NCBI GenBank assembly: GCA_017449215.1
Contig: JAFSJY010000050.1
Coordinates: 1-45,819, forward strand
Direction: 5' to 3'
Origin: Acholeplasmatales bacterium
GTDB lineage: Bacteria > Bacillota_I > Bacilli_A > Acholeplasmatales > Anaeroplasmataceae
Length of the DNA: 45,819 nt
Position 1 is the first letter of the stretch. Each line of letters opens with the position of its first letter. A model generated the notes under the pieces. The model was not told the origin of the DNA. It ran no database searches and saw nothing but the letters and a program-made list of their open reading frames with translations. Shown one piece after another: positions 1,940 through 44,726 of the stretch. The translations under genes and the position numbers were made by a program.

Positions 1940-2203
1940 ATGAAAAAGATTGTAAGTTTATTATTTATATTTATATCTATGATTGTGCTTACTTCATGTG
2001 GAAATGATGTAAAGATTGAGAATTATGATGTAATGCATGAAACTGAATTTGGTGGAGTTTATATTAAAATCGAAATTGATGATTTTAATGAATTTGAATT
2101 TGGAGATAGTGTAGATATTGAATTTACTAATGAACAAAAGAAAAAGAAGGTCGATTACTTTTCGACCCTCTTAATTTTTTGTTCAAATTTATTCTTATTT
2201 TGA
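1940..2203 (+). pseudogene. Truncated lipoprotein gene
   Basis: The product (87 residues from the ATG at 1940; a GTG at 1931 is also possible) starts with a lysine pair and a hydrophobic stretch, then the lipobox LTSC-G, typical of a lipoprotein signal peptide cut before cysteine by signal peptidase II. After it comes an acidic stretch with alternating hydrophobic residues, as in a beta-rich extracytoplasmic domain. After IEFTNEQ the frame runs into the terminator and then the antisense of purF, where it ends at TGA. That overlap with purF, and a TGA stop used by no other coding gene here except the broken transposase, indicate loss of the true 3' end. I do not recognise the family. Confidence 0.5.
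2132..2184. terminator. Terminator at the 3' end of purF
   Basis: GGTCGA (2149-2154) pairs with TCGACC (2162-2167) across the purF stop codon, and an outer GAACAAAA/TTTTGTTC pair (2132-2139 with 2177-2184) lengthens the stem. Leftward transcripts meet a T-rich tail. It probably ends the glnN-amt-asnB-purF transcript and may also stop rightward reading. Confidence 0.55.
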
Positions 2204-3585
2204 TTCTTTGGTAAATCTACTGGATAATTTCCAGAGAAGCAACCATCACAGAATGAGCATTTAGAATTAGATGCCAGTTTATGTGCTCCATCGATAGATA
2301 AATAAGCAAGTGAAGTCGCACCAATTTCTTTAGCTATTTCATCTACTGTATCATATTTACAAGCTATTAGATTCTCTTCTGAATCAATATCAGTACCAAA
2401 ATAGCAAGGATGCTTAAATGCAGGAGAAGATATTCTTAAATGAACCTCCTTAGCACCATTATCCTTTAATAGCTTAATGATTCTAGCACTTGTTGTTCCT
2501 CTTACGATTGAGTCATCAATTAGAATAACTCTTTTATTATTTACAGTTTCTTTAATTACATTTAGTTTAATATTAACTGCAGATTCTCTTTCTTCCTGAG
2601 TTGGCTTAATAAAGCATCTACCAATATATTTATTTTTTACAAAGCCTATTCCATATGGAATACCTGATTCCATAGAATAGCCTATAGCGGCATCTAAGCC
2701 TGAATCAGGAACACCAATAACTATATCAGCGTCTACCTTAGATTCTCTTGCTAGAATTTTACCTGCGTTTATTCTTGCCATATGTACTGATGATCCTTCA
2801 ATAATAGAATCACCTCTAGCAAAATAGATAAATTCAAATACACATAATGATGTCTTATTTGTAGGTATATAAGAAGAAGATAAGCCTTCACTTGAAATAG
2901 TTAATATTTCACCCGGATTAATATCTCTAATGAATTTAGCGCCAATAGAATCTATAGCACATGACTCACTAGTTACTACATATCCACCTGTATTTGTTAT
3001 ACCTAAGCATAATGGTCTAAAGCCATTAGGATCTCTAAATGCGATTAGCTTTGTCGCTGACATAGCTATACAGGAATAGGCACCTTTAATTATTTGCATA
3101 GAGTTTTTAATTGCTTCCTCAATTGAGCCTGATTTTAATCTTTCCTTTACAATTGTATAAGCGATATCCTCTGTATCTGATGTACCATGGAAGATAGCAC
3201 CATCTAGCTCAAACTTTTCTCTAATCTCAGCTGCGTTAGTTAAATTACCATTATGAGCAAGTGCTAGATTACCTTTATTATGTCTTATTACTAATGGTTG
3301 AACATTATTAATGTTATTACCACCAGTAGTAGAATATCTAACATGGCCAATTGCCATATTACCTAGTCCTAGCTTAGATAGGCTTTCCTTATTAAACACA
3401 TCCCCTACTAGACCAATTCCCTTATGTGCTTCAAATACACCATTATCACATACAGTGATTCCACAGGCCTCCTGGCCTCTATGTTGTAGAGCATATAATC
3501 CTAAATATACCTTATTTGCTACATTAGTTGTATGATTTTCAAAAATACCAAATACACCACATTCTTCATGGATTGAATTAAACAT
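2155..3585 (-). CDS. purF: Amidophosphoribosyltransferase
   Basis: This enzyme catalyses the first committed step of purine synthesis, transferring glutamine amide nitrogen to PRPP to give 5-phosphoribosylamine. The N-terminal class II glutamine amidotransferase domain begins after a short propeptide (HEE-CGVFGIF, cysteine as nucleophile). The PRPP-binding loop VILIDDSIVRGTT sits near residue 355. Four cysteine positions (LCVFEF, HPCYF, CSFC) match the Bacillus-type enzyme, which carries a 4Fe-4S cluster. Length (about 476) is normal. I chose the ATG at 3585; a GTG at 3597 overlapping the preceding stop codon is also possible. It is the last gene of the leftward glnN-amt-asnB operon, separate from other purine genes, so here it is grouped by its use of glutamine. 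Confidence 0.95.
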   Translation of the reverse strand: MFNSIHEECGVFGIFENHTTNVANKVYLGLYALQHRGQEACGITVCDNGVFEAHKGIGLVGDVFNKESLSKLGLGNMAIGHVRYSTTGGNNINNVQPLVIRHNKGNLALAHNGNLTNAAEIREKFELDGAIFHGTSDTEDIAYTIVKERLKSGSIEEAIKNSMQIIKGAYSCIAMSATKLIAFRDPNGFRPLCLGITNTGGYVVTSESCAIDSIGAKFIRDINPGEILTISSEGLSSSYIPTNKTSLCVFEFIYFARGDSIIEGSSVHMARINAGKILARESKVDADIVIGVPDSGLDAAIGYSMESGIPYGIGFVKNKYIGRCFIKPTQEERESAVNIKLNVIKETVNNKRVILIDDSIVRGTTSARIIKLLKDNGAKEVHLRISSPAFKHPCYFGTDIDSEENLIACKYDTVDEIAKEIGATSLAYLSIDGAHKLASNSKCSFCDGCFSGNYPVDLPKNQNKNKFEQKIKRVEK

Positions 3586-3586
3586 A

Positions 3587-5167
3587 TTATTTACCACTAT
3601 TTCCGTAATTTTTTAATACTCTAGCTGATGGATCGTTAACATTACAATTTTCCCAATTCTTATTAGGCATCCAGAAGTCAACAATCATCTCACTTTGGTT
3701 AGGATAATATTTTTCAAATATTTCTCTATATAATAATGATTCCTTAGTAAAAGGAGTAGAATGACTGTATTTCTTTCTTAATTCCTCATATTCAGAATCT
3801 GTATATTTATTATTTGCATATTCCTTTAAATAATCTACCATTGAATGACCTACAGCGTCACTAAATGCGGCTTTTTCACGCATTAGAATACTATAAGGTA
3901 ATATATTATCTGTTTCAAATGCTTTTCTTAATAAATATTTACCCATATTATAGTTATTCATTTTTAATTCTGGGTTAATACTCATTACATATTTAACAAA
4001 ATCTAAATCACCAAATGGAACTCTAGCCTCTAATGAGTTAGAAGAAATACATCTATCAGCTCTTAGTACATCATACATATGTAATTCCTTTACTCTCTTA
4101 ATAGATTCATTTTGAAATTCTAAAGCATTAGGAGCGAAATCTGTATATTTATAACCAAATAGCTCATCTGATATTTCACCAGTTAATATTACCTTTATAT
4201 CAGATTGCTCATGTATTGCCTTACATAATAAATACATACCAATTGATGCTCTAATTGTTGTAATATCATATGTACCTAATATTTCAATAACATGCTCTAA
4301 GGCATTTAATACATCATCCTTAGTGATTATTATTTCGTGATGATTTGAGCTAATAAAATCACTAACCTCCTTAGCGTATTTTAAGTCGATGGCATCTGTA
4401 TTCATACCAATAGAGAATGTTTCAATTTTCTTATTTAATTTCTTAGCTGCGATTGCACATACTAAGCTTGAATCTAATCCACCAGATAATAAAAAGCCAA
4501 CCTTTGAATCTGATACTAATCTTTTGTTTACACCTTCAACTAATTTATCATGGATATTTTTAGTTATATTATCTAAGCTATCGTCGATAATAGTATCTAC
4601 CTTAGTTATATCGTTATAGCAAATGAATTTACCATTTTTATAGTAATGTCCTGGGGGAAATGGTAATACCTTCTTTGCTATAGAAGTGATACATTTAGGC
4701 TCTGATGCAAAAATGATATTATTATCATTATCATAGCCATAATATAATGGTCTAATTCCAATAGGATCACGAGCTGCAATTATTTCCTTAGTAAATTCAT
4801 TATAAATAATTAAGGCAAATTCAGCATCTAGCATTTTAAACATATCTTCCTTATATAATTCATATAATGGAAGAAGTATTTCACAGTCTGATTCACTATT
4901 AAATTTATATCCCTTATTAATTAATTCGTCCTTTATTTTTTTATAGCCATAAATTTCACCATTACATACTAAATGATAATTATAGTGATTGAATGGCTGC
5001 ATGCCTGATTCGTCTACGCCCATAATAGCTAATCTTTCAAATGCTAATCTTGCATTAGAAAAGCTAGCCTCTCTATACATATCAGGTCCTCTAGATGTTG
5101 TTTTTTCGAATCCTTTTTTGAACTCGTCATAATTATTTAAACTCATATATCCTATTATTGAACACAT
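3587..5167 (-). CDS. asnB: Asparagine synthetase B, glutamine-hydrolysing
   Basis: The product (526 residues) makes asparagine from aspartate, ATP and glutamine. The start is fixed by the nucleophile: Met-Cys-Ser at the N terminus, as in E. coli AsnB, with GGAGG eight bases before the ATG at 5167; a longer reading from 5212 would bury the catalytic cysteine. The amidotransferase domain includes SRGPD and CNGEIYGY. The synthetase domain has the pyrophosphate loop SGGLDSS, then YDITTIRAS, GEISDELFG and LEARVPFGD, all in E. coli-type order. It lies 59 bases after the Amt-PII gene in the same direction, behind a perfect palindrome, and its 3' end touches purF, so all four leftward genes look co-transcribed. 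Glutaminase and synthetase motifs are both intact. Confidence 0.93.
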   Translation of the reverse strand: MCSIIGYMSLNNYDEFKKGFEKTTSRGPDMYREASFSNARLAFERLAIMGVDESGMQPFNHYNYHLVCNGEIYGYKKIKDELINKGYKFNSESDCEILLPLYELYKEDMFKMLDAEFALIIYNEFTKEIIAARDPIGIRPLYYGYDNDNNIIFASEPKCITSIAKKVLPFPPGHYYKNGKFICYNDITKVDTIIDDSLDNITKNIHDKLVEGVNKRLVSDSKVGFLLSGGLDSSLVCAIAAKKLNKKIETFSIGMNTDAIDLKYAKEVSDFISSNHHEIIITKDDVLNALEHVIEILGTYDITTIRASIGMYLLCKAIHEQSDIKVILTGEISDELFGYKYTDFAPNALEFQNESIKRVKELHMYDVLRADRCISSNSLEARVPFGDLDFVKYVMSINPELKMNNYNMGKYLLRKAFETDNILPYSILMREKAAFSDAVGHSMVDYLKEYANNKYTDSEYEELRKKYSHSTPFTKESLLYREIFEKYYPNQSEMIVDFWMPNKNWENCNVNDPSARVLKNYGNSGK

Positions 5168-5190
5168 ATAAAAATCCTCCATAATAACCA

Positions 5191-5216
5191 ATATGTGCCC
5201 AACGTTGGGCACATAT
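5191..5216. repeat. Perfect 26-bp palindrome between amt and asnB
   Basis: ATATGTGCCCAAC (5191-5203) is followed directly by its exact complement (5204-5216). It starts 11 bases after the amt stop and ends 23 bases before the asnB start. There is no T-run on the leftward transcript, so it is not a standard terminator. It could be a protein operator, an RNA hairpin that stabilises the upstream message, or an RNA-processing site. Confidence 0.8.
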
Positions 5217-5226
5217 CATTATTTTA

Positions 5227-7035
5227 TTATTCTACGTCTAGTAAAGCCTTGTAGCCTTCTTCACCAGTTCTTACTTTAATTACATTTTCAACATCATATA
5301 CGAAGATCTTACCATCGCCGATGTGACCAGTATATAATGTTTTCTTTGCTGTATCTATTACATCTCTTACTGGAACGTTAGCTACAACAATATCGATTTG
5401 AATCTTTGGTAATAATGTAGTTTCAATTTCTACACCACGGTAATATTCAGGCTTACCCTTTTGGATACCACATCCCATAACATGAGATACTGTCATACCT
5501 GTAATACCAATTTTCATTAAATTATTCTTTAATGTATCAAGCATTCTTTCCTTACAGATAATTTCAATCTTTGTCATCTTATGATAATCATCATCTGACT
5601 TAGCACCTTCAATTACTGTATCTTCCTTGTTTAAGTGAGTTACATCAACTGCCTCAGAAAGAGGTACATCACCAGTAACGCTTAATACTGTAGTTCCTGA
5701 ATAATCAATAGATTCAACTGCTGGAACGAAATCAGGATATGCAGAGATTAAACCATGCTCTGAAATATCTAGACCCTTAACTTCCTCTTCAGGAGTAGCT
5801 CTTAAGAATGGTGTTACACCATCATGTCTCTTAATTAGCTTCATGATACCGAATACTAGGAATGCCCAAACTGCTGTCCAAGCACATACTGCTAATACAC
5901 CGATTGTTTGGATACCTAATTGTGCGAATCCTCCACCATAGAATAAACCTGTTGTTGTAGAGAATAATCCACAAGCTAATGTACCCCATAAACCATTTAA
6001 GAAGTGAACTGAGCAAGCACCTACTGGGTCATCGATATGTAAGACCTTATCGATGAACTCAACACCGAAGCATAATAGAATACCTGCAACTAAGCCGATT
6101 GCGATAGAACCAATTAAATCAACTCTAGCACAGCCTGCTGTAATAGCAACTAAACCTGCTAAAGAACCATTTAATGTCATTGAAACATCTGGCTTACCAT
6201 TTCTAATCCAAGTAATCATCATTACTGTTACAGTTGAAATAGCTGCAGCGACAGTAGTAGTCATGAATACTTGACCCATACCTTCATATCCATCCCAAGT
6301 TGTACAAGCTGCTGGGTTGAATCCATACCAACCGAACCATAGAATGAATACACCAAGTGCACCAATTAATACATTGTGACCTTGGATTGCATTAATTTTT
6401 ACTACCTTACCATTTTCATCTCTTGTATACTTACCAATTCTTGGTCCAACCATCCAAGCACCGATTAATGCTGTTAAACCACCAACCATGTGAATTGAAC
6501 AAGAACCAGATAAATCAATAAATCCTTGTGCTGTACCATCGATTAATCCCCAGCTATCAGCTAATTGCTGTAACCAACCGTTGTTACCAACACCCCAGTT
6601 CCAATAAGCTTCAACTGGATATACGATTGCTGAAATAATCATTGAATAAATACAATAAGCTTTAAAGTTTGTTCTTTCTGCCATAGCTCCTGAAACGATT
6701 GTTGCAGTAGTAGCACAGAATACTAAGTTAAAAATAAAGTCTGTCCAGTTATAAACTGAAGCATTTGAACCAAACATATCCTTCCAAACCTGAGCTGCAT
6801 CGCCGAATAAGCCTCCGGCGATAGCATTCTCAGCACATAGAAGAGGTCCGCCAATTAGAATGAAGGTAACTGTTCCTAAGCAGAAATCCATTAGATTCTT
6901 CATAGTGATGTTACCTGTGTTTTTTGATCTTGTAAATCCTGCCTCACACATAGCAAAGCCTGCTTGCATGAAGAAGATTAGTGAAATTGCTATCAATTTC
7001 CAGATTTGGTAATCCCAAGCTGCATCTAAAATCAT
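5227..7035 (-). CDS. amt: Ammonium transporter fused to a PII sensor domain
   Basis: Residues 1 to about 420 form a multi-span Amt/MEP/Rh ammonium channel, with CEAGFTRSKN near the N terminus, the conserved FGWYGFN segment and the DDPVGACSVHFLNGLWG segment holding a pore histidine. The cytoplasmic tail keeps the Amt motif TPEEEVKGLDISEHG. A linker of about 50 residues follows, then a complete PII protein from about residue 486: MTKIEIICKERML, the T-loop GKPEYYRGVEIET, the B-loop YTGHIGDGKIF and the C-loop VRTGEEG. In most bacteria the PII partner (GlnK) is a separate protein that plugs Amt in response to ATP/ADP and 2-oxoglutarate; here it would be tethered at three copies per trimer. The gene lies 28 bases after glnN and is almost certainly co-transcribed with it. 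No separate glnK is in the window. Confidence 0.95.
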   Translation of the reverse strand: MILDAAWDYQIWKLIAISLIFFMQAGFAMCEAGFTRSKNTGNITMKNLMDFCLGTVTFILIGGPLLCAENAIAGGLFGDAAQVWKDMFGSNASVYNWTDFIFNLVFCATTATIVSGAMAERTNFKAYCIYSMIISAIVYPVEAYWNWGVGNNGWLQQLADSWGLIDGTAQGFIDLSGSCSIHMVGGLTALIGAWMVGPRIGKYTRDENGKVVKINAIQGHNVLIGALGVFILWFGWYGFNPAACTTWDGYEGMGQVFMTTTVAAAISTVTVMMITWIRNGKPDVSMTLNGSLAGLVAITAGCARVDLIGSIAIGLVAGILLCFGVEFIDKVLHIDDPVGACSVHFLNGLWGTLACGLFSTTTGLFYGGGFAQLGIQTIGVLAVCAWTAVWAFLVFGIMKLIKRHDGVTPFLRATPEEEVKGLDISEHGLISAYPDFVPAVESIDYSGTTVLSVTGDVPLSEAVDVTHLNKEDTVIEGAKSDDDYHKMTKIEIICKERMLDTLKNNLMKIGITGMTVSHVMGCGIQKGKPEYYRGVEIETTLLPKIQIDIVVANVPVRDVIDTAKKTLYTGHIGDGKIFVYDVENVIKVRTGEEGYKALLDVE

Positions 7036-7063: not shown

Positions 7064-9151
7064 TTATTTAACACTGTATAATAAATCTCCATATGAAACA
7101 AATGGCCAATAATCCTTATCAACAATTAACTCGATTTCGTCGATAACTGTTCTTAAAGCTTCCATCTTAGTTAATACGTTATCCTTTAGATATGTTGATA
7201 ATTTAGCACAATCTGTAATCTTATCCTTCTCTACTAGAGACTTTTCAAGTTCTCTCTTGATTTCATAAATCTTATTTGAAGCATCTGCAAGAATAGAAGC
7301 TGTATTAGTTTCATATTCAGCATTTAATCCAATAGATTTCTTATTAGCAATGCTGCCAATTAAGAAATTAGAAAATTTGCTAATTGCTGGTAAATAATAT
7401 TTATTAACCATATCAAGTGCAGTTAATGCTTCAATATTAACAACCTTTGCATAATGCTCTTGAGCTATTTCATATCTTGCATTAATTTCATTTACTGTAT
7501 AAATGCTATGAGAAGTAAATAAATCTACATTCTTTTTATTTAAATAATAAGGTAATGCCTCTGGAGTTGACTTAAGATTTAATAAGCCTCTCTCTTCAGC
7601 TTCCTTAATCCATGCATCATCATAACCATTACCATTGAAGATAATTCTCTTATGCTCAATGATTGTATTCTTAATTAATGCATGTAAATCATTATCGAAA
7701 TTATCAGACTTCTCTAGGATATCTGCGAATTTCTTTAATTCTTCAGCAACTGCTGTATTTAACATAATGTTTGCACAAGAGATTGATTCAGAAGAACCAA
7801 CTGCTCTAAATTCAAACTTATTACCAGTGAATGCAAAAGGAGAAGTACGGTTTCTATCTGTTGTATCCTTTGGTAAATCAGGTAATACGTCAGCACCAAT
7901 CTTTAAGAAGCTCTTACCTTTTGATTTAATAGGCTTTCCTGTTTCAATTGAATCTAAAACCTCTTGAAGCTCAGAACCAATGAACATTGAAATGATTGCT
8001 GGAGGTGCCTCGTTTGCTCCTAAACGGAAGTCGTTACCAGCACTTGCAACACTTATTCTTAATAGATCTTGATATTCATCAACTGCCTTAATAACAGCTA
8101 CTAAGAATAATAAGAATTGTGCATTCTCACTTGGAGTATCACCTGGCTCAAGAAGGTTAATACCAGTATTTGTTGAAATACTCCAGTTGTTATGCTTACC
8201 TGAACCATTTACACCCTTAAATGGTTTTTCATGTAATAAGCAAACCATATTATGCTTTTTAGCAACCTTTTGCATAATTTCCATTGTTAATTGGTTATGG
8301 TCGGCTGCGATATTTGTTGTTGAGAAGATAGGTGCTAGCTCATGTTGTGCAGGAGCTACTTCGTTATGCTCTGTCTTACCTAAAATTCCAAGCTTCCATA
8401 ATTCCTCATTTAAATCATTCATGAAATCTTGAACTCTTGGCTTAATTACACCGAAGTAATGATCCTCAAGCTCTTGTCCCTTTGGAGGCATTGCACCAAA
8501 TAATGTTCTACCTGTATAAATTAGGTCAGGTCTCTTTAGATATACATCCTTATCTACTAAGAAGTATTCTTGTTCTGGACCAACTGTTGTTTTAATAGAT
8601 GTTACATTTTCATTACCGAATAGCTTAAGTACTCTCATTGCTTGCTTATTAATAGCTTGCATTGAACGAAGAAGAGGAGTCTTCTTGTCTAGTGCTTCAC
8701 CACTATAAGAACAGAAAGCTGTAGGAATACATAATACCTTATCCTTTATAAATGCATAACTTGTTGGGTCCCATGCTGTATATCCTCTTGCCTCACATGT
8801 AGCACGTAAGCCACCTGAAGGGAATGAAGAAGCATCAGGCTCACCCTTAACTAATTCCTTTCCTTTAAATTCCATGATGACTCTATCATCACCTGCTGGT
8901 GAAATAAAGCTATCATGCTTTTCAGCTGTTACACCAGTCATTGGCTGGAACCAGTGAGTAAAGTGTGTAGCACCAAGCTCAATTGCCCAATCCTTCATTG
9001 CTTGAGCAACGCTATTTGCAACACTAATATCTAGTTCTTCGCCATCTTGGATTGTTTTCTTTAATTTCTTATAAACATCTGATGATAATTTAGATTTCAT
9101 TACCTTATCATCAAAAACTAAAGAACCAAAATAATCTGTTACTTGTTTCAT
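7064..9151 (-). CDS. glnN: Glutamine synthetase type III
   Basis: This is a class III (GSIII) glutamine synthetase, ATP-dependent assimilation of ammonium into glutamate. The 695-residue length fits GSIII, well above the 440 or so of GSI. Recognisable features are the GSIII N-terminal region ([19 protein letters not shown]), the catalytic segment [14 protein letters not shown], the nucleotide-binding region [14 protein letters not shown], and the arginine-rich [23 protein letters not shown]. The start is supported by AGGAGG at the normal spacing. It is the first gene of the leftward operon, behind a TTGACA/TAGAAT promoter and a leader containing an intrinsic terminator (9170-9213), so expression is probably set by antitermination. 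A second, GSI-like enzyme is encoded at 15416, in the divergent arm. Confidence 0.96.
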
Positions 9152-9169
9152 ATTTTCCTCCTAATAAAT

Positions 9170-9213
9170 AAAAAAAGGGCAAGGATATGAGATTTCTCTC
9201 TGGCATCCTTGCC
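9170..9213 (-). promoter_or_regulatory. glnN leader: terminator overlapping a hexaloop hairpin
   Basis: On the minus strand GGCAAGGAT (9205-9213) pairs with ATCCTTGCC (9178-9186), followed by C and seven Ts, making a strong intrinsic terminator just before the glnN ribosome site. The same upstream arm can instead form GGC-AAGGAT-GCC (9202-9213), a hairpin with a six-base loop having A at position 1 and G at position 4. A second small hairpin (GAGA-GAAA-TCTC, 9189-9200) follows one base later. The two folds exclude each other. ANTAR proteins are known to stabilise paired hexaloop hairpins against a terminator; assigning this leader to the ANTAR protein at 16624 is inference. Confidence 0.75.
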
Positions 9214-9224
9214 TCTACGCCATT

Positions 9225-9253
9225 ATTCTATCGCTAGTTCGAATGCTTGTCAA
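9225..9253 (-). promoter_or_regulatory. glnN promoter
   Basis: TTGACA (9248-9253, minus strand) and TAGAAT (9225-9230) are separated by exactly 17 bases, a near-consensus sigma-A promoter. Transcription would start around 9217-9218, placing the terminator leader at the very beginning of the RNA. Confidence 0.8.
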
Positions 9254-9343
9254 CATAAAAATGATAAAAATTTCAAAAAACGTCAAAAATTGAAATATAA
9301 TTCCTTAAATCGGCGAAAATTTTGAATAAAAATTAAATAATAG

Positions 9344-9372
9344 TTGACATCTTGCGTGAATAGTTATATTAT
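9344..9372 (+). promoter_or_regulatory. gltB promoter
   Basis: TTGACA (9344-9349) and TATTAT (9367-9372) are separated by 17 bases. The predicted start near 9379-9380 places the hexaloop hairpin at the very 5' end of the RNA. No GlnR-like TGTNAN7TNACA box was seen in the divergent region. Confidence 0.8.
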
Positions 9373-9378
9373 ATTTTC

Positions 9379-9442
9379 GAACAATGGTGTTCACCTTTAT
9401 GATGTTATTGGCGTCATTTTGTAGGGGTGAACGCCTTTTTTT
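9379..9442 (+). promoter_or_regulatory. gltB leader: terminator overlapping a hexaloop hairpin
   Basis: GGTGTTCACC (9386-9395) pairs with GGTGAACGCC (9426-9435) followed by seven Ts, forming an intrinsic terminator before gltB. The left arm overlaps an alternative hairpin, GAAC-AATGGT-GTTC (9379-9392), with a six-base loop carrying A at position 1 and G at position 4. A second hairpin, ATGATG/CGTCAT (9399-9404 with 9412-9417, loop TTATTGG), follows six bases later. The arrangement of first hairpin, second hairpin and competing terminator matches the glnN leader and resembles known ANTAR-controlled leaders. The second loop is seven bases rather than six, so the match is imperfect. Confidence 0.78.
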
Positions 9443-9470
9443 AATTTTATAAGGAAGAGGGTATTATATT

Positions 9471-12400
9471 ATGTACGAACAAGAAAAGGTAGGTTTATAT
9501 AATCCAAGTTATGAGCATGATGCTTGTGGTATTGGTGCTATAGCTCAAATTAAAGGAATAAAAACTCATAAGACGATTAAAGATGCCCTCAACATATTAA
9601 TTCATCTAGAGCATAGAGGAGGAACAGGTGCTGAGGATAATTCAGGTGATGGTGCCGGAATCTTATTCCAAATTCCTGATAAATTCTTTAGAAGCGAAAA
9701 GCTAGACTTTACATTACCTAAGCTAGGATCTTATGGTGTAGGTCAAATATTCTTATCTAAAAACGAGGATATTAGAAATAAGGAATTATCTATTATAGAT
9801 GATACATTTAATAAAGAAGGATTAGAAATATTAGGTTATAGAAGAGTTCCTGTAGATACATATGGAATTGGTCAAACTGCAATTAAGACAATGCCATATA
9901 TTATGCAGGTATTCGTTAAAAAGCCTAGTGATATAGAAGAAGGATTACCTTTCGAAAGAAAGCTATATGTTGTTAGAAGAGTAATTGAAACTCTAGCAAT
10001 TAAAAATAAATTAAATATATATTTTTGTTCTTTATCTTCAAGAACAATAGTATATAAGGGAATGCTTGTGTCTACACAGGTAAGAGATTTCTATCTAGAT
10101 TTAAAGGATACTAATGTTGAAACTGCTATTGCGTTAGTTCACTCAAGATTCTCAACTAATACATTCCCATCTTGGGAAAGAGCTCATCCTAATAGATATT
10201 TATGTCATAATGGTGAAATCAATACTATTAGAGGTAATGTTAATAATGTTAAATCAAGAGAAGGCTTATTTGAATCTGAAATATTTAATGATGATTTAAA
10301 GAAGATTATTCCATTAATTCCAAAGGAATCTTCAGATTCTGCAATGTTTGATAATTTCTTAGAGTTCTTATATTTAAATGGTAGAACACTAGAAGAAACA
10401 ATTATGATGATGATTCCAGAGCCATGGATGAAGAATGTAGTTATGAATGAGAATTTAAAGGCATTCTATGAATTCCATTCAACATTCCTAGAGCCATGGG
10501 ATGGACCAGCAGCTATTTTGTTTACAGATGGTATTAAATTAGGTGCTTCACTAGATAGAAATGGTTTAAGACCTTCTAGATATTATGTAACTAAGGATGA
10601 TTATTTAATTCTATTTAGTGAAACGGGTTCTCTTCCTATTGATGAAAAGAATATATTAGAAAAGAAGAGACTAGAGCCTGGTAAGATTTTATTAGTTGAT
10701 ACTAATGTAGGTAAGATTATTTCTAATGATGAAATTAAAATGAATTATTCAAAGAAGCTTCCTTATAAGGAATGGAATGAAAATATCATTCATGTAGATA
10801 AGCTAAAGGCTCATAAGGAAACAAATAATGATGATATTCATTTTATTCAACATGAATTAAATTATACATATGATGAATTAATGGAGGGGATTATTCCTCT
10901 TGCTAATAATGATGCTGAAAAGGTAGTATCTATGGGTAATGATTTACCTTTAGCAGTATTAATGGAAAAGGAATTTAATTTATATCAATTCTTTAAGCAA
11001 AGATTTGCCCAAGTAACTAACCCACCTATCGATTCAATTAGAGAAGATGTAGTTATGTCTTCACTAATGTATTTAGGTAGAGAAGGAAATCTATTAAATC
11101 CTACTAAGGTTAATGCTAGAAGAATTAGAATTGAAAACCCTATTTTATCACAAGAAGAATTTAATAAGGTTAAATATATTGATAAATCATATCAAATTAA
11201 GGTAGATGTTGTATCTTATGTATATGATTATAAGAAAGAAAAAATGGGTGATGCCCTAGATAGAATATTTAAGGAATGTGAAAAGAAGATTGATGATGGT
11301 GCTTCAATTATTATCTTAACTGATAGAGGGGCTAAGGGATTAAAGATTCCTTCATTATTAGTATCTTCAGGCTTACATCAATATTTAACAAGAGTATCAA
11401 AAAGAACTCATGTTTCTATCGTATTAGAGGCTGCAGAGCCAAGAGAGGTTCATCATTTCGCTGCGTTAATTGGCTTTGGTGTTAATGCTATCTATCCTTA
11501 TTTAGTATATGAAACAATTGAAGAATATGCAGAAAGAGGATATTTAACAGTTGATGCTAAAAAGGCAATTGAAAATTATAGACATGCCACATTAAAGAGT
11601 ATAACTAAGATTATTTCTAAGATGGGTATTTCAACAATCCAATCATATAATGGTGCTCAGATTTTTGAATGTATTGGCTTATCTGATGAAATCATTGATA
11701 AATACTTTACAAATACTCCAAATTCTGTTGGTGGTATTAGTATGGATTTAATTGAAGAAAACTCAATTAAGCTATATCAAAAGGCATTAACTAGAAGTGA
11801 TGATACACTAGATTCTATGGGCTTACATGGATATAGAAAGAATAAGCATGATCATATTTATGATCCAGTTGCCATATTTACATTACAGGCAGCATGTAGA
11901 AGTGGTGATTATAAGCAATATAAGGACTTCACTTCACTATTAAGTAAAAAGAGAATTAATATTAGGGACACATTAGATTTAGATTTCAGCCATTCAATTT
12001 CAATTGATGAGGTTGAAAGTGTTGATAATATTGTTAAGAGATTTAAAACTGGTGCGATGAGCTATGGTTCTATATCTAAGGAAGCTCATGAATGTATGGC
12101 AATTGCCATGAATATTTTAGGTGGTAAGTCTAACACTGGTGAAGGTGGAGAGGAAAGAAGTAGATATTATTCTACTGATGGAATCGATAGATGCTCCAAG
12201 ATTAAGCAGGTTGCATCAGGTAGATTTGGTGTTACTATTGAATATTTAACAAACGCAATTGAAATTCAAATTAAGATGGCTCAGGGTGCTAAGCCAGGTG
12301 AGGGTGGACAATTACCAGGTCAAAAGGTATTCCCTTGGATAGCTAAGGCTAGACATTCAACTCCTGGTGTTTCATTAATATCACCTCCACCACATCATGA

Positions 12401-13943
12401 TATTTATTCAATTGAGGATTTAGCTCAACTAATTTATGATTTAAAGAATGCTAATAGGGATGCTAGAATCTCTGTTAAGCTTGTTTCTGAATCTGGTGTT
12501 GGTACAATCGCCGCTGGTGTTGTTAAGGCTGGTGCGAATACAATATTAATTTCAGGATATGATGGTGGTACAGGAGCTTCTCCTAGAACATCTATTTCTA
12601 ATGCAGGTATTCCATGGGAGATTGGTTTATCTGAAACACATCAAACATTAGTATTAAATGGCTTAAGAGATAGAATCAGACTTGAAACTGATGGTAAGCT
12701 TTTAACTGGTAAGGATTTAGCAGTAGCTATATTATTAGGTGCTGAGGAATTCGGCTTCGCAACAGGACCATTAATCGCAATGGGCTGTATTATGATGAGA
12801 GTATGTAACATGAATACATGTCCCGTAGGTGTTGCTACTCAAGATGAAAAGCTACGTAAGAATTTCAAGGGTAAGCCTGAATATGTTATTAATTTCATGA
12901 GATTTATTGCTCAGGAATTAAGAGAATATATGGCTATGCTTGGATTTAAGACTATTGATGAGATGGTTGGTCATACTGAATTATTATCATTAAAGCCTGA
13001 ATATAAGAATAGATTAAATGTATCTAAGCTATTATTCAACGCAAAGGTAGTAAATAGACATGACAATATCTTCAAGGAATATAAGAAGATAGATTTAAAT
13101 AATACATTAGACTGTAGAATGCTATTACCTTTATGTGAGGAATCTATTAAATATGGTCATGTTAAGGAAATGAACATTGAAATATCTAATGTTAATAGAT
13201 CACTAGGTACTATCCTATCTAATGAAATTACTAAGGTATATAAGGATAAGGGCTTAAAGGATGATACTATCATTATCAATGCAAATGGTAATGCTGGTAA
13301 CTCATTTGGTGCATTCCTAACTAATGGTGTTACATTAAATGTTACAGGTGATGCTAATGACTATTTAGGTAAGGGCCTATGTGGTGGAAAGATTATTGTT
13401 AAATCATCTGATAAGGCTACATTCGCACCTGAAAAGAATATCATTTGTGGTAATGTTGCACTTTATGGTGCTACATCTGGAGAAGTATATTTAGATGGTA
13501 TTTGTGGTGAAAGATTCTCAATTAGAAATTCTGGTGCTAAGGTTGTAGCACTTGGCTGCGGATTACATGGCTGTGAATATATGACAGGTGGTGTTGTCGT
13601 ATTATTAGGTAAGATTGGTAGAAACTTCGCTGCTGGTATGAGTGGTGGTGTTGCTTATATCTATGGTCCTACTAATAAGAAGAACATCAACACTGAGCTT
13701 GTTTCTATATTAGATGTTGATGATAAGGATTCAAAGGTAATTAAGGAATTATTAGCAAATCATATTAAATATACAAATAGTGAATATGTATCAAATTTAT
13801 TATATAACTTTGATCCAAAGGATTATTTTAAGGTATTACCTAATGATTATGCTAAGATTCTATCTTATATGGAAGAAGCAAAGAATTTAGGAATCGAAGA
13901 TTCTGAATTATATGCATTTAATAAGTTTACGGGGGTGAAATAA
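9471..13943 (+). CDS. gltB: Glutamate synthase large subunit (GOGAT)
   Basis: The product moves the glutamine amide to 2-oxoglutarate, giving two glutamates per cycle with glutamine synthetase. At 1490 residues it is a full-length bacterial-type large subunit. A propeptide of 18 residues precedes the nucleophile cysteine (HDA-CGIGA). The amidotransferase domain follows with RGGTGAEDNSGDGAGI, then the central domain, then the FMN/2-oxoglutarate synthase domain (GAMSYGSIS, GEGGEE, KPGEGGQLPG, YDGGTGASP). The 3Fe-4S ligand cluster CNMNTCPVGVAT lies near residue 1110, and a glycine-rich beta-helix closes the protein. It is the first gene of the rightward operon, behind the terminator leader, and its stop codon overlaps the gltD start by one base. 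Confidence 0.97.
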   Translation: MYEQEKVGLYNPSYEHDACGIGAIAQIKGIKTHKTIKDALNILIHLEHRGGTGAEDNSGDGAGILFQIPDKFFRSEKLDFTLPKLGSYGVGQIFLSKNEDIRNKELSIIDDTFNKEGLEILGYRRVPVDTYGIGQTAIKTMPYIMQVFVKKPSDIEEGLPFERKLYVVRRVIETLAIKNKLNIYFCSLSSRTIVYKGMLVSTQVRDFYLDLKDTNVETAIALVHSRFSTNTFPSWERAHPNRYLCHNGEINTIRGNVNNVKSREGLFESEIFNDDLKKIIPLIPKESSDSAMFDNFLEFLYLNGRTLEETIMMMIPEPWMKNVVMNENLKAFYEFHSTFLEPWDGPAAILFTDGIKLGASLDRNGLRPSRYYVTKDDYLILFSETGSLPIDEKNILEKKRLEPGKILLVDTNVGKIISNDEIKMNYSKKLPYKEWNENIIHVDKLKAHKETNNDDIHFIQHELNYTYDELMEGIIPLANNDAEKVVSMGNDLPLAVLMEKEFNLYQFFKQRFAQVTNPPIDSIREDVVMSSLMYLGREGNLLNPTKVNARRIRIENPILSQEEFNKVKYIDKSYQIKVDVVSYVYDYKKEKMGDALDRIFKECEKKIDDGASIIILTDRGAKGLKIPSLLVSSGLHQYLTRVSKRTHVSIVLEAAEPREVHHFAALIGFGVNAIYPYLVYETIEEYAERGYLTVDAKKAIENYRHATLKSITKIISKMGISTIQSYNGAQIFECIGLSDEIIDKYFTNTPNSVGGISMDLIEENSIKLYQKALTRSDDTLDSMGLHGYRKNKHDHIYDPVAIFTLQAACRSGDYKQYKDFTSLLSKKRINIRDTLDLDFSHSISIDEVESVDNIVKRFKTGAMSYGSISKEAHECMAIAMNILGGKSNTGEGGEERSRYYSTDGIDRCSKIKQVASGRFGVTIEYLTNAIEIQIKMAQGAKPGEGGQLPGQKVFPWIAKARHSTPGVSLISPPPHHDIYSIEDLAQLIYDLKNANRDARISVKLVSESGVGTIAAGVVKAGANTILISGYDGGTGASPRTSISNAGIPWEIGLSETHQTLVLNGLRDRIRLETDGKLLTGKDLAVAILLGAEEFGFATGPLIAMGCIMMRVCNMNTCPVGVATQDEKLRKNFKGKPEYVINFMRFIAQELREYMAMLGFKTIDEMVGHTELLSLKPEYKNRLNVSKLLFNAKVVNRHDNIFKEYKKIDLNNTLDCRMLLPLCEESIKYGHVKEMNIEISNVNRSLGTILSNEITKVYKDKGLKDDTIIINANGNAGNSFGAFLTNGVTLNVTGDANDYLGKGLCGGKIIVKSSDKATFAPEKNIICGNVALYGATSGEVYLDGICGERFSIRNSGAKVVALGCGLHGCEYMTGGVVVLLGKIGRNFAAGMSGGVAYIYGPTNKKNINTELVSILDVDDKDSKVIKELLANHIKYTNSEYVSNLLYNFDPKDYFKVLPNDYAKILSYMEEAKNLGIEDSELYAFNKFTGVK

Positions 13944-15376
13944 TGGGAAAGCCTACTGGATTTATGGAATTTGAAAGAAAAAATAAGCCTGAGGTAGAGG
14001 TTCTAAAAAGAATCGAAAACTTCAATGATTTTCATATTCCATTTGATTTAAAAACTCAACAGGAGCAAGCCTCTAGATGTATGAATTGCGGTGTCCCATT
14101 TTGTCAGTCCGCAATGAAGGTAAATAATAGAAATGTTGGCTGTCCACTTTCTAATTTAATTCCTGAATGGAATCATCTAATTTATTTAGGATTATTTGAG
14201 GAAGCCTATAAGAGATTAGAAAAGACAGCTCCATTTCCTGAGTTTACAGGTAATGTATGCCCAGCATTATGTGAGGCATGCTGCTCATGTAGTATAAATA
14301 ATGAATCAGTATCTATTAGAGCTAATGAACTATTTTTAATTGAAAAAGCATTTGAAAATGGTTGGATTAAGCCTAAGAAGGATATTAAAAGAAATAATGT
14401 TAAGGTTGCTGTGATTGGATCTGGTCCTTCTGGATTATCTGCCGCTAAAAGATTAAATGATAATGGCTTTAGTGTAACAGTATATGAAAAGAATGATAGA
14501 TTCGGTGGATTATTAATGTATGGCATTCCTAATATGAAAATAGAAAAAAGAATTATTGAAAGAAGAATAAATCTTTTAAAGGAAGAAGGAATTACATTCA
14601 TTAATAATACTAAAATTGGTGTTGATGTTACTATGGATGAGCTAAATGAAAAATATGATGAAATCATTTTTGCTTGTGGTACATCATTAGCTAGACCTTT
14701 AGCTGTTAAGAATAATGATGCTAAGGGTATTGTATATGCAGTAGATTTCTTAACTAAGACCACTAAGAATTTATTAGATAAGGCTGAATTTGAATATAAT
14801 CTAAAGGATAAAAATGTAATTATCGTTGGTGGTGGTGATACTGCAAATGACTGTTGTGGTACCGCTGCGAGAGAAAAGGCTAAATCAATTATTGAGCTTG
14901 AAATAACTAAGGAACCACCACTAGAAAACACATTACCTTGGCCTAATTATCCTAATAAAAAGAAGACTGATTATGGTGTATTAGAGGCTAATACATTAAT
15001 GGGTCATGATATTAGAAGATATGAAACAACTATTGATGAGGTTGTTAAGGAAGATAGTAAATTAACTGGAGTATATATTAAGAAGGTTAAATTCGTTAAT
15101 GAGGGTGGAAAAACTAAATTAGTTGATGTTCCTAACACAAGAGAATATTTACCATGTGACTATTTAATTATCGCTATGGGATTCTTAGGAACTACTACAG
15201 AAGATTTAAATAATTATAAGCTAGATTCTGTTAATAACAGAGTTAAGCTTAATAGTTTTAAGTATAATGATAAGATTTCTGTTTGTGGTGATATGAAAAA
15301 TGGTCAATCTTTAGTAGTAATTGCAATAAAAGATGGGATTGATTGTGCAGATCAATTAATTATAAAGTATAATTAA
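13943..15376 (+). CDS. gltD: Glutamate synthase small subunit
   Basis: This is the FAD-dependent NAD(P)H dehydrogenase subunit of GOGAT, feeding electrons to the large subunit. The N-terminal cysteine region (CMNCGVPFCQ, then GCPLSNLIPEW, then CPALCEACCSC) binds two 4Fe-4S clusters. The FAD motif VAVIGSGPSGLSAA is near residue 154 and the NAD(P)H motif VIIVGGGDTAND near residue 292. The C-terminal CGDMKNGQSLVVIAI is typical of the family. Length (477) is normal. The start overlaps the gltB stop, so the two are translationally coupled. A paralogue of the same fold, NfnB, is encoded at 39111 with its own partner, so the two can be told apart by context. Confidence 0.96.
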   Translation: MGKPTGFMEFERKNKPEVEVLKRIENFNDFHIPFDLKTQQEQASRCMNCGVPFCQSAMKVNNRNVGCPLSNLIPEWNHLIYLGLFEEAYKRLEKTAPFPEFTGNVCPALCEACCSCSINNESVSIRANELFLIEKAFENGWIKPKKDIKRNNVKVAVIGSGPSGLSAAKRLNDNGFSVTVYEKNDRFGGLLMYGIPNMKIEKRIIERRINLLKEEGITFINNTKIGVDVTMDELNEKYDEIIFACGTSLARPLAVKNNDAKGIVYAVDFLTKTTKNLLDKAEFEYNLKDKNVIIVGGGDTANDCCGTAAREKAKSIIELEITKEPPLENTLPWPNYPNKKKTDYGVLEANTLMGHDIRRYETTIDEVVKEDSKLTGVYIKKVKFVNEGGKTKLVDVPNTREYLPCDYLIIAMGFLGTTTEDLNNYKLDSVNNRVKLNSFKYNDKISVCGDMKNGQSLVVIAIKDGIDCADQLIIKYN

Positions 15377-15415: not shown

Positions 15416-16609
15416 ATGTACGATATAGAAACAATTTTAGAATATGTTAAGGAAGAGGATATTAAATTCATTAGATTAGCATTTATTGATATTTATGGTA
15501 AGCAAAAGAATGTATCAATAATGCCACATGAATTAGAAAAGGCATTTAAGTATGGTATTTCCATTGATTCAATGGCAATTGATGGATTTGAAAGCGGATA
15601 TAAATCTGATTTATTCTTATTCCCAAATCCTGACACAATAACAATCCTTCCTTGGAGACCAAGAGAGGGTAGAGTTATTAGAATGTTCTGTGACATAAAG
15701 TATCCCGATGGAACTGATTTTATTTGCGATACTAGAAAGCTATTAATTAACGCAATTAATGAAGCTAAGAAGAATGGATTAGAATTCCATTTTGGATCTG
15801 AAATAGAATTCTATTTATTTAAAGCAGATGATGAGGGTGAATCAACTGGTGTTACTTATGATAAGGCTGGTTATATGGATATCGCTCCTGATGATAAGGG
15901 TGAGAACATAAGAAGAGAAATATGTCTTACTCTTGAGGAGATGGATATTATGCCAGAAAGAAGCCATCATGAGGAAGGTCCAGGACAAAATGAGGTTGCC
16001 TTCAGATATTCTGATGCCTTAAGAGCTGCCGATGAGGCTGTAACATTTAAGACTGTAGTTAAAACTGTAGCTGGAAGAAATGGATTATATGCATCATTTA
16101 ATCCAAAGCCAATTAGTGATAAGCCAGGTAATGGATATCATATTAATTTCTCAGTTGCAGGTGGAGATTTAGATAGCGCAATCGAGGGTGTATTAACACA
16201 CATAAAGGAAATTACAGCATTCTTAAATGTTAGTGATGAATCATATGAAAGATTAGGAAAGCTTATGGCTCCTAAATATATTTCTTGGAGTAGAGAAAAT
16301 AGAAGTGAGCTAATAAGAGTTCCTGCAGCTAAGGATAATTTTATTAGAGCTGAGCTTCGTTCACCAGATCCACAAATTAATCCATATGTTGCATTTACAT
16401 TATTAATATATGCAGGTATGGAGGGTATATTAAATAATTATAAGCTTAGACAGCCTGTTGATTCTGATTTAAATAAGGCGTCTGATGTTTTATTAGATAA
16501 ATTAGATAAATTACCATTAAGCTTAGAAGAAGCTAAGGAAGAGGCTAGAAATTCTAAGTTTGTTAATAAATATATTCCTAAGGAATTATTAGAAAATTAT
16601 TTAAAATAG
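15416..16609 (+). CDS. glnA: Short GSI-family glutamine synthetase
   Basis: The protein has glutamine synthetase I signatures: the N-terminal beta-grasp (FIRLAFIDIYGKQKNV), the metal-binding segment FGSEIEFYLF, HHEEGPGQNEVAF, the ammonium-site region GNGYHINFS, and SWSRENRSELIRVPA with ELRSPDPQINPY. At 397 residues it is about 45 shorter than Bacillus GlnA. The gaps are roughly 20 residues after GYHINFS and the C-terminal tail that in Bacillus GSI contributes to subunit contacts and feedback control. No adenylylation-tyrosine loop is seen. It lies 39 bases after gltD with AAGGAGG before the ATG, and directly upstream of the ANTAR gene. It may be a true synthetase or a related ligase; GSIII in the opposite arm may be the main enzyme. 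Confidence 0.85.
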   Translation: MYDIETILEYVKEEDIKFIRLAFIDIYGKQKNVSIMPHELEKAFKYGISIDSMAIDGFESGYKSDLFLFPNPDTITILPWRPREGRVIRMFCDIKYPDGTDFICDTRKLLINAINEAKKNGLEFHFGSEIEFYLFKADDEGESTGVTYDKAGYMDIAPDDKGENIRREICLTLEEMDIMPERSHHEEGPGQNEVAFRYSDALRAADEAVTFKTVVKTVAGRNGLYASFNPKPISDKPGNGYHINFSVAGGDLDSAIEGVLTHIKEITAFLNVSDESYERLGKLMAPKYISWSRENRSELIRVPAAKDNFIRAELRSPDPQINPYVAFTLLIYAGMEGILNNYKLRQPVDSDLNKASDVLLDKLDKLPLSLEEAKEEARNSKFVNKYIPKELLENYLK

Positions 16610-16623
16610 ATTGAGGTAGAAAA

Positions 16624-17202
16624 ATGCTTGATAGAATTTTTAGTGTACTATTAGTTACATCATCTAAAAATTTCTCTAATGGCATTTTATCTGCTTTATC
16701 TGAAACTAATTATGAAGTAACATTATCAGAGACAGTCCAAAAGGCTAAAAGAATGTTAGTTGAAAAGGACTTTGATATCATTATTGTTAATTGTCCAGTA
16801 ATTGATGATTTTGGTATGGAATTTGCAATAGATGAGGCAATAAGAGATATAAGTGGAATTATATTATTTGTTACTCCTGAGCTTGAATCAGAGGTCTATT
16901 ATAAAACGTGTGAATATGGAATATTAACGTTGGTTAAGCCAACCTCTAAGGGAATATTATTACAAACGCTAATGCTTCTTAGTGCGACGATTATAAAGAA
17001 AGAAAGCATGAGAGAAAAACCTAAGAATTTAAAGACAAGGCTTGAGGAAATAAAAATAATAAATACTGCTAAAATGCTACTTATTGAGCATAAGCATATA
17101 TCTGAGGATGAAGCTCATAAGTACTTAGAAAAAAGAGCTATGAATTTAAGAAAAAGTAAGGTAAAAATAGCCAGTGAAATTATAGAAGAGTATATAAAGT
17201 AA
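16624..17202 (+). CDS. ANTAR-domain antiterminator with pseudo-receiver
   Basis: Residues 1 to about 125 have the fold of a response-regulator receiver but lack its phosphorylation residues: the acidic pair is replaced in VLLVTSSKNF, and the acceptor aspartate is asparagine in IIIVNCPVIDD, while the KP motif (LVKPTS) remains. Residues from about 140 match an ANTAR RNA-binding domain (RLEEIKIINTAKMLL, then SEDEAHKYLEKRAMNLRKSK). ANTAR proteins bind paired hexaloop hairpins and prevent terminator formation. The gene is 14 bases after the GSI-like gene and 22 before pyrG. Similar regulators sit beside glutamine synthetase genes in clostridia. The likely targets are the leaders at 9170-9213 and 9379-9442. 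With no phosphorylation site, it may sense nitrogen by ligand or partner binding, possibly a glutamine synthetase. Confidence 0.88.
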   Translation: MLDRIFSVLLVTSSKNFSNGILSALSETNYEVTLSETVQKAKRMLVEKDFDIIIVNCPVIDDFGMEFAIDEAIRDISGIILFVTPELESEVYYKTCEYGILTLVKPTSKGILLQTLMLLSATIIKKESMREKPKNLKTRLEEIKIINTAKMLLIEHKHISEDEAHKYLEKRAMNLRKSKVKIASEIIEEYIK

Positions 17203-17224: not shown

Positions 17225-18835
17225 ATGAGTAAATATATTTTTGTTACAGGAGGAGTAGTATCAGGATTGGGCAAGGGTATAACTGCCGCGTCACTTGGTA
17301 GATTATTAAAGTCAAGAGGCTTAAAGGTAGCTGCTCAAAAGCTAGATCCTTATATTAATGTAGACCCTGGAACAATGTCTCCTTATCAACATGGTGAAGT
17401 ATTCGTAACTGAGGATGGTGCTGAAACAGATTTAGACTTAGGTCATTATGAAAGATTTATCGATGAGAATTTAAATAAATATTCAAATCTTACAACTGGT
17501 AAGGTATTCTCTAATGTATTAACAAAAGAAAGAAATGGAGATTATTTAGGTTCTACAGTTCAGATCATTCCAAATATAACAAATGAAATAAAGGAATTTA
17601 TATATAAGGTAGGTAAAAAGACTAACGCTGATGTAGTTATTACTGAAATTGGTGGTACTACAGGTGATATTGAATCTCAACCATTCCTAGAGGCTATCAG
17701 GCAGGTTGGTAGAGAGGTAGGAGATAATAATGCCTTATATATTCATGTTTGCTTAGTTCCTTATTTAAAGGCATCTAAGGAGCATAAATCAAAGCCGGTT
17801 CAGCATTCTGTTAAAGAATTAAGAGGAATGGGTATTTCTCCTAATATTATAATTTTAAGAACAGATGAAAAGATTACAGATGAAAACATCTTTAAGAAGG
17901 TAGCCTTATTCTGTGATGTTAAGCCTGACTGTGTTATTGAAAATACAACATTAGATGTTTTATATGAAGCACCATTAATGCTAGAGGCATCTAATTTAAG
18001 TAAGATTGTATGTAGAGAATTAAAGATTGAAGCTAATGAACCAGATTTAACTGAATGGAAGAATATGGTTAATAAGATTAAGAATTTAAAGCATGTTACT
18101 AATATTGCTTTAGTTGGTAAATATGTAGAGCTTCATGATGCATATCTATCAGTAGTAGAGGCATTACATCATGCTGGATATAGCTTAAGTACTAATATCA
18201 ATATTAAGTGGATTGATAGTGAAGAAATTACTAGTGCTAATGTTAAATCATATTTTGAAGGTATCGATGGAATCATTGTTCCTGGTGGATTTGGTAGTAG
18301 AGGAATTAACGGAATGATTTTATCTTGTAAATATGCAAGAGAAAATAATGTTCCTTATTTTGGAATTTGCTTAGGTATGCAAATAATGTGTATTGAATTT
18401 GCTAAGGATGTTTTAAAGAAGGCTGATGCTAATTCAAATGAATTCGATGATAAGTCATCATATAAGATTATCGATTATCTTGATGGTCAATCTGATGATA
18501 TTAAGAAGGGAGGTACCTTAAGATTAGGTGCTTATCCTTGTAAACTAAAGAAGAATTCAGTTATTCATAATGCATATAAAACTGAATTAATTAGTGAGCG
18601 TCACAGACATAGATATGAATTTAATAATAAATATCGTGATGATTTCATTAATGAAGGTATGACATTATGTGGTCTATCTCCTGATGAGAATTTAGTAGAG
18701 GCAGTTGAATTAAGTGATAGAGATTTCTTCGTTGGTGTTCAATATCATCCTGAATTTAAATCAAGACCAAATAAGGTACATCCATTATTCTTAGAATTTG
18801 TTAGAGCTTCTTTAGGAGGTAAACATGAGAATTAA
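17225..18835 (+). CDS. pyrG: CTP synthase
   Basis: This enzyme aminates UTP to CTP using ATP and glutamine, with GTP as activator. The N-terminal synthase domain opens with [13 protein letters not shown] (P-loop) and has the UTP-binding region [20 protein letters not shown]. The C-terminal class I glutamine amidotransferase domain has the nucleophile elbow YFGICLGMQ and the histidine-glutamate pair in QYHPEF. Length (536) is normal. GGGAGG sits before the ATG. It follows the ANTAR gene by 22 bases without a terminator, which places pyrimidine amination in the nitrogen operon; its last codons overlap the dapF start. Confidence 0.97.
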
Positions 18836-44641: not shown

Positions 44642-44718
44642 CGGGAAATAGCTCAGCTTGGTAGAGCGCTTGGTTTGGGACCAAGATGTCGCAGGTTCGA
44701 ATCCTGTTTTCCCGACCA
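44642..44718 (+). tRNA. tRNA-Pro (anticodon UGG)
   Basis: A full cloverleaf can be drawn: acceptor CGGGAAA pairs with TTTCCCG, the D arm GCTC/GAGC, the anticodon arm CTTGG/CCAAG with loop TTTGGGA (anticodon TGG, reading CCN codons), the T arm CAGG-type stem with TTCGAAT loop. The CCA end is encoded (44716-44718). Confidence 0.96.
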
Positions 44719-44726
44719 TTTTTTAT

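Follow-up and report, generated by a model that had tools for sequence, protein, structure and literature searches.

Single-hexaloop ANTAR attenuators predicted on both arms of a divergent nitrogen regulon in Acholeplasmatales

How are two divergent operons of nitrogen genes, read outward from one short intergenic region, controlled? An initial annotation of this locus, made from the sequence, proposed paired hexaloop attenuators on both promoters and an ANTAR regulator encoded in one of the two arms. The reading favored here, with a probability of about 0.78, is that each arm is run by an ANTAR-dependent transcription attenuator with a single hexaloop. The window, that is, the whole stretch of DNA that was analysed (45,819 nt), is one contig (C41) of a 2.05 Mb genome (G000). 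Its nearest named relatives are metagenome-assembled genomes of Acholeplasmatales, from the rumen for most, and the relatives compared below are for the most part metagenome-assembled genomes as well.

The divergent locus and its two leaders

The divergent promoter region (9152-9470) lies between glnN and gltB. The initial annotation had counted four genes leftward and seven rightward, and the order of open reading frames together with Pfam matches confirms this; intergenic gaps inside both arms are no longer than 39 nt. The genes, read outward from the promoter region, are:

7064..9151, minus strand: glnN, type III glutamine synthetase, opening the left arm (Pfam GSIII_N, E 1.5e-81)
5227..7035, minus strand: ammonium transporter fused to a PII domain (Pfam Ammonium_transp, P-II)
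3587..5212, minus strand: asnB, asparagine synthase (Pfam Asn_synthase, GATase_7)
2155..3597, minus strand: purF, amidophosphoribosyltransferase, closing the left arm (Pfam GATase_6, Pribosyltran)
9471..13943, plus strand: gltB, glutamate synthase large subunit, opening the right arm (Pfam GATase_2, Glu_synthase, GXGXG)
13943..15376, plus strand: gltD, glutamate synthase small subunit (open reading frame in a conserved position, named by sequence resemblance)
15416..16609, plus strand: glnA-type glutamine synthetase with type I domain architecture (Pfam Gln-synt_C, Gln-synt_N)
16624..17202, plus strand: ANTAR regulator with pseudo-receiver, coiled coil and C-terminal ANTAR domain (Pfam ANTAR, E 3e-16)
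17225..20841, plus strand: pyrG, dapF and dapL, downstream in the right arm (mutually overlapping open reading frames and conserved neighbours), a block that begins 22 nt past the ANTAR gene

That a single nitrogen regulon stands behind both promoters, as had been proposed, is supported. The regulon also extends outside the window, with a second glnA and patA elsewhere in the genome. Toward the ends of the window lie an open reading frame (420-1283, minus) that presumably resembles an ISL3-type transposase, and another (44845-45816, minus), directly after two tRNA genes (44642-44798), that we take to resemble the DUF1016/YhcG nuclease family. An Rfam scan of the window, with E up to 5, matched tRNAs and, by chance, microRNAs, and brought up no other family of relevance.

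Between the two arms, the following elements can be read:

9225..9253, minus strand: consensus sigma-70 promoter of glnN (-35 TTGACA at 9253-9248, 17-nt spacer, -10 TAGAAT at 9230-9225)
9202..9213, minus strand: predicted antiterminator hairpin of the glnN leader, GGC[AAGGAT]GCC (A1/G4 hexaloop, C-G closing pair)
9178..9213, minus strand: intrinsic terminator of the glnN leader, GGCAAGGAT...ATCCTTGCC (U-run 9176-9170; the 5' arm holds the hexaloop)
9189..9200, minus strand: second small hairpin of the glnN leader, GAGA-GAAA-UCUC (a tetraloop nested in the terminator loop)
9344..9372, plus strand: consensus sigma-70 promoter of gltB (TTGACA-17-TATTAT)
9379..9392, plus strand: predicted antiterminator hairpin of the gltB leader, GAAC[AATGGT]GTTC (A1/G4 hexaloop, C-G closing pair)
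9386..9435, plus strand: intrinsic terminator of the gltB leader, GGTGTTCACC...GGGGTGAACGCC (U-run 9436-9442)
9399..9417, plus strand: second hairpin of the gltB leader, ATGATG...CGTCAT (nested in the terminator loop; not a hexaloop)

On each side the order is the same: the promoter, the hexaloop hairpin almost at once, and an intrinsic terminator that lies 25-35 nt ahead of the start codon. In the glnN leader (GGC[AAGGAT]GCC-AGAGAGAAATCTCAT-ATCCTTGCC-C-TTTTTTT), the terminator pairs GGCAAGGAT with ATCCTTGCC, which uses up the hairpin's 5' strand together with its loop. In the gltB leader (GAAC[AATGGT]GTTCACC...GGGGTGAACGCC-TTTTTTT), the terminator takes the 3' half of the hexaloop and the 3' strand of the hairpin. 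The geometry differs between the two leaders, and in both the hexaloop hairpin and the terminator are mutually exclusive. The terminator before each gene, and the alternative hairpin with an A1/G4 six-base loop overlapping it, had both been noted initially and are found where they were placed; promoters, hairpins and exclusive terminators together support hexaloop attenuators on both divergent promoters.

The minimum free energy of the glnN leader is -20.7 kcal/mol (z -3.6; shuffles -10.6 +/- 2.8), and that of the gltB leader is -25.4 kcal/mol (z -5.6), a value equalled by 0 of 200 shuffles. When leaders ahead of the same genes in relatives are included, 54 leaders can be compared. Among these, the hexaloop hairpin alone averages -3.2 kcal/mol (range about -2 to -5), and the forced hexaloop state is on average ~11 kcal/mol costlier than the terminator fold, a gap by which the terminator should win without help. 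An A1/G4 hexaloop hairpin arises in 4.6% (glnN) and 3.0% (gltB) of dinucleotide shuffles and is only mildly surprising in either window leader alone. Because the hexaloop is conserved in relatives, the glnN hairpin among them, it lies far beyond chance.

ANTAR proteins and the proposed mechanism

The ANTAR protein that the initial annotation placed at 16624 in the gltB operon is indeed encoded there: the product of 16624-17202 matches PF03861 with an E-value of 3e-16 (59.4 bits against a cut-off of 27.3). By sequence, the PDB proteins that match it best are EutV, AmiR, and Rv1626. With its predicted structure (pLDDT 89.9), a fold search ranks RNA-bound EutV first and returns EutV (6ww6/6wsh), Rv1626, and AmiR. 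In EutV, K149, E160, Y164, and M172 contact the hexaloop (PMC8934654). The corresponding residues K150, E161, and M173 are matched here, while the position of Tyr164 is a histidine in every member of the group. Invariant columns among 18 relatives include A149, K150, E161, H165, and M173, and four of these (K150, E161, H165, and M173) are likewise unchanged in a set of 19 proteins that extends to Clostridia. The VIA-align rows are filled by receiver domains and carry little information on the ANTAR part; the contig scan for ANTAR proteins used a subset (A2), the alignment of 18 proteins (A1) being too divergent. AmiR (PDB 1qo0) is similar in combining a pseudo-receiver with an ANTAR domain and in having a histidine at the EutV Tyr164 position. 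It differs in the genes that it controls, and no AmiC-like partner gene was seen here. A receiver fold is predicted in the 16624 protein, with an asparagine where EutV has Asp54 and with the acidic pair after strand 1 absent. The phospho-acceptor aspartate of EutV-type receivers is thus missing from this protein, which makes control by phosphorylation at that site unlikely, a situation for which AmiR offers a precedent; its input is probably a signal other than phosphorylation of the usual aspartate.

From these parts, the following mechanism can be proposed. The predicted transcription start lies a few nucleotides ahead of the hairpin, which would make the hexaloop the first structure of the transcript. 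When active ANTAR protein is absent, the stronger terminator, which shares bases with the hairpin, would displace it, and transcription would stop about 30-60 nt downstream. An ANTAR dimer binding the hexaloop, through G4 and the closing C-G pair, would hold the hairpin, block the terminator and allow the operon to be read through in vivo. As the ANTAR gene lies in the gltB arm, this would create positive feedback. A single site would be physically sufficient, since both protomers contact a single hexaloop in the EutV structure (PMC8934654). The activating condition may be nitrogen limitation, by analogy with NitR of Clostridium saccharobutylicum, for which a review, citing Stutz 2007, relates a proposal of antitermination under nitrogen limitation (PMC6316151). 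That review describes NitR as an ANTAR protein with a link to the genes for glutamine synthetase and GOGAT, and the ANTAR protein here has such a link too. In contrast, the present regulon belongs to Acholeplasmatales and has divergent attenuators on glnN and gltB; with the review as the source, the comparison covers the regulator and the genes linked to it.

The 16624 protein is one candidate for the acting regulator, given that the genome encodes a second ANTAR protein (contig C56, locus L099, 7328-7885, minus), between glyA and an rnfCDGEAB-like operon. This second protein has a tyrosine, not a histidine, at the position that stacks on G4, and the order glyA-ANTAR-rnf recurs in G007 and G018 and partly in other relatives. 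It is conceivable that the two leaders are controlled by this rnf-type protein, or by both proteins. G014 and G018 point that way, as each has a one-hexaloop glnN leader with the rnf-type ANTAR as the only type. On the other hand, most genomes with the motif, as well as the Clostridia sharing this motif, encode the GS/GOGAT-linked type inside the regulated cluster itself, and control by the second protein, alone or jointly, is accordingly judged rather unlikely. Regarding the presence of a regulator of either type, an ANTAR protein is encoded in each of the 19 motif-bearing genomes, and 0 of 32 ANTAR-free genomes have the motif, a co-occurrence that is confounded by kinship and gene content.

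The number of hexaloops per leader

The single-hexaloop reading departs from the known dual-hexaloop antiterminators, namely EutV/eut of Enterococcus faecalis, NasR/nasF, and AmiR/amiE (PMC3369931, PMC3369936, PMC8934654). The window leaders share with these systems an A1/G4 hexaloop, a conserved closing pair, a stem of at least 3 bp, exclusion of a terminator, an ANTAR regulator, and a nitrogen theme. They differ in having one hexaloop, near +1, which is itself the antiterminator, with no recruiting hairpin and no linker. For EutV, both hexaloops have been reported as obligatory (PMC3369931, PMC8934654). Ramesh 2012 gave a definition of such targets, to which binding by an ANTAR protein and loss of antitermination on mutation of A1 or G4 also belong. 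Of its structural features, both window leaders have an A1/G4 hexaloop whose stem is no shorter than 3 bp, as do the 54 leaders in all, and an antiterminator hairpin that overlaps and excludes an intrinsic terminator; two tandem hexaloops with a short linker are not found in them.

The initial annotation had read paired hexaloops, whereas each leader contains exactly one. The second small hairpin that it described does exist in both leaders, but it is neither a hexaloop nor conserved. Could it nevertheless be the second ANTAR site of a classical dual-hexaloop target? Apart from its presence in both window leaders, such a reading can appeal to near-canonical dual-hexaloop leaders before glnN or glnA in three relatives (G005, G007, and G034), and to one in the genome itself. 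There, a second type I glnA (TIGR00653) on another contig (C25, L166, about 400-470, plus) has a leader composed of GAGC[AAAGGC]GCTC, about 16 nt, GC[AAAGTC]GC, and a terminator, which is only near-canonical because its second stem has just 2 bp. Among the leaders under discussion, however, the second hairpins have loops of 3-14 nt, lie inside the terminator and show no conserved A1/G4. Neither their sequence, nor their loop size, nor their presence is conserved, and they are nearly absent from short leaders (G009 and G002), for example GAAC[AATGGT]GTTCTTCCTAGGGGATGAACGCC. No second A1/G4 hexaloop was found between promoter and U-run in 51 of the 54 leaders, both window leaders included; in the remaining three, the candidates are the same hairpin in another register, an overlapping structure incompatible with the hairpin, and what is more probably a tetraloop. 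Upstream, the promoter arrangement is common to nearly all conserved leaders, and in most of them 10-18 nt separate the end of the -10 box from the loop, which leaves no room for a further hairpin. A classical dual-hexaloop target is, on this evidence, improbable. Judged by its sequence, the second small hairpin appears to be a variable apical helix of the terminator and no ANTAR site. One- and two-hexaloop leaders, as they can be read in the DNA, coexist in this genome, which offers a ready internal comparison.

The structural study of EutV reported that an ANTAR dimer makes contact with a single hexaloop at any one time and posed the need for both hairpins as a question; its authors expected single-hexaloop sites only where the time limit set by a transcribing polymerase does not apply, and urged a search for such sites (PMC8934654). 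As predicted single-hexaloop attenuators that occur in nature, the window leaders would face precisely this time limit, and a leader of 35-60 nt could therefore be used to address the two-hairpin question directly. EutX, a small RNA of E. faecalis (PMC8934654), also resembles the present leaders in offering one hexaloop as the ANTAR-binding unit. However, EutX is a trans-acting sponge, while the hexaloop here would belong to a cis attenuator that competes with a terminator.

Conservation and spread

Leaders ahead of the same genes in relatives retain the hairpin as GGC[AAnGRn]GCC in the glnN class and as GAAC[AAnGRn]GTTC in the right-arm class. The strand outside the terminator (GCC for glnN; GAAC with A1A2 for gltB) is as well kept as the terminator strand, as would be expected only of a hairpin that is itself of importance. 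The right-arm hairpin persists in front of different first genes: it precedes gltB in the window and in G003, G010, G024, and G026, a split GOGAT in G002, G004, G009, G015, and G033, and glnA in G021, G036, G040, and G043. At five loci (L111, L113, L116, L120, and L128), gltB-gltD has been swapped in place for the split GOGAT, made up of three shorter genes, behind the same hexaloop leader. In right arms that open with the ANTAR gene (G006, G008, G012, G017, G019, and G023), no hexaloop attenuator was found before that gene, and one is present only before glnN. These loci (L114, L115, L118, L121, L123, and L125) and those above would represent ANTAR-first and auto-regulated versions of one regulon.

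The stem varies by gene and lineage (GGC, GAAC, AAGC, TTAC, ACAC, ACAGC, AAAAGC, AGGTC, and GAAAC), while the loop stays AANGRN; in G033, for instance, the glnN stem is altered to AAGC/GCTT. Across 44 distinct hairpins, 92% of cells are paired and the closing C-G pair is invariant. Changes on both sides occupy 53 cells, compared with 18.7 +/- 5.0 in shuffles, 0 of 500 of which are as high, although this covariation lies partly between gene classes, each of which is counted many times. When partners are slid, pairing falls to 17-38%. The stem changes are therefore compensatory, and the proposal passes a refuting test that the initial annotation had set for it, covariation in relatives. The loops of the 54 leaders were partly picked with the pattern AANG, so statistical weight is carried by a tally made without loop selection and by a gene-blind search. 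In the tally, A1/G4 occurs in 51 of 78 hexaloops overlapping terminators before nitrogen genes and in 30 of 274 hexaloops at other terminators of the same loci, a control in which some genuine sites remain, ahead of genes that were not identified as nitrogen genes.

Genome-wide scans relied on sequence patterns and protein searches. In the own genome, the patterns return one site per class (glnN and gltB) and a further single hexaloop on contig C84 (L171/L172), TAC[AAGGGC]GTA with a terminator, before a putrescine aminotransferase gene (patA). Two other pattern sites (C12:10608 and C36:4984) were rejected as chance, having no overlapping terminator and overlapping reading frames. The prediction that patA leaders of relatives (loci L173-L178) would carry the element was borne out by TTAC[AANGRC]GTAW (W = A or T) together with a terminator in G012, G024, G013, G036, and G021, the terminator being weaker in G036. 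A one-hexaloop leader is also present before an aldehyde dehydrogenase gene downstream of patA in G012, G024, G009, and G013.

In Lachnospiraceae and other Clostridia, the loci surrounding GS/GOGAT-linked ANTAR genes have the same design with other stems. The genomes in which these loci lie were searched with a gene-blind pattern (TTGACA, 16-18 nt, TANNNT, 4-20 nt, CAANGGCG), which matched in 19 of 22 genomes, against 0 matches for a reversed-pattern control. A competing terminator is present at about 23 of the 28 distinct sites read, and 20 of the 28 precede homologues of glnN, asnB, gltB, amt-PII, dapL, or glnA. This return of the same gene set by a pattern blind to genes is the strongest single result. 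In one Lachnospiraceae genome (G073, L231), AGGTC[AAAGGC]GATCT stands before a glutamate dehydrogenase-like gene (gdh, named from sequence). Butyrivibrio sp. YAB3001, a culturable bacterium, also carries a leader of this kind, ahead of dapL-glnA-ANTAR. Five gene-blind sites (L212, L228, L213, L225, and L229) were set aside for want of a convincing stem or terminator.

The same comparisons bear on whether a transcription factor might instead use the conserved inverted repeat at +1 as its DNA operator, with terminators that are ordinary or act as constitutive attenuators. The hairpin is, after all, also a DNA palindrome (e.g., GAAC-N6-GTTC) just past the -10 box. However, its half-sites are wholly different between genes and lineages, while an asymmetric centre, AANGR, does not change and lies in every case on the sense strand; the reversed pattern has no matches; and in each leader the repeat overlaps a terminator arm, which makes the RNA folds exclusive. 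An operator is therefore very improbable. As for chance, under which ordinary terminators would happen to hold an AAxGxx hexaloop in their 5' arm, the motif does appear in 3-5% of shuffles of one leader, yet conservation, covariation, the gene-blind recovery of the gene set and the patA leaders refute this for the family as a whole and leave it scarcely credible.

The single-hexaloop attenuators of the window probably belong to a widespread class, in which one hexaloop at the 5' end of the transcript would merge the recruiting and antiterminator hairpins and run nitrogen regulons in Acholeplasmatales and Lachnospiraceae, such that the two-hexaloop requirement of EutV would not be general. ANTAR control of GS/GOGAT genes is already known, as are dual-hexaloop attenuators. 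What appears to be new is the predicted cis attenuator that has one hexaloop at +1 and is conserved in two groups of bacteria; in a search of the literature outside subscription papers such as Stutz 2007, single-hexaloop attenuators acting in cis were not found. By implication, covariance searches with a dual motif would overlook a large share of ANTAR regulons, among them nitrogen assimilation in many Clostridia of rumen and gut.

A separate observation concerns putrescine aminotransferase, which is 94-99% identical between several species, compared with mostly 84-92% for glnN. The high identity of these sequences suggests recent transfer or strong constraint.
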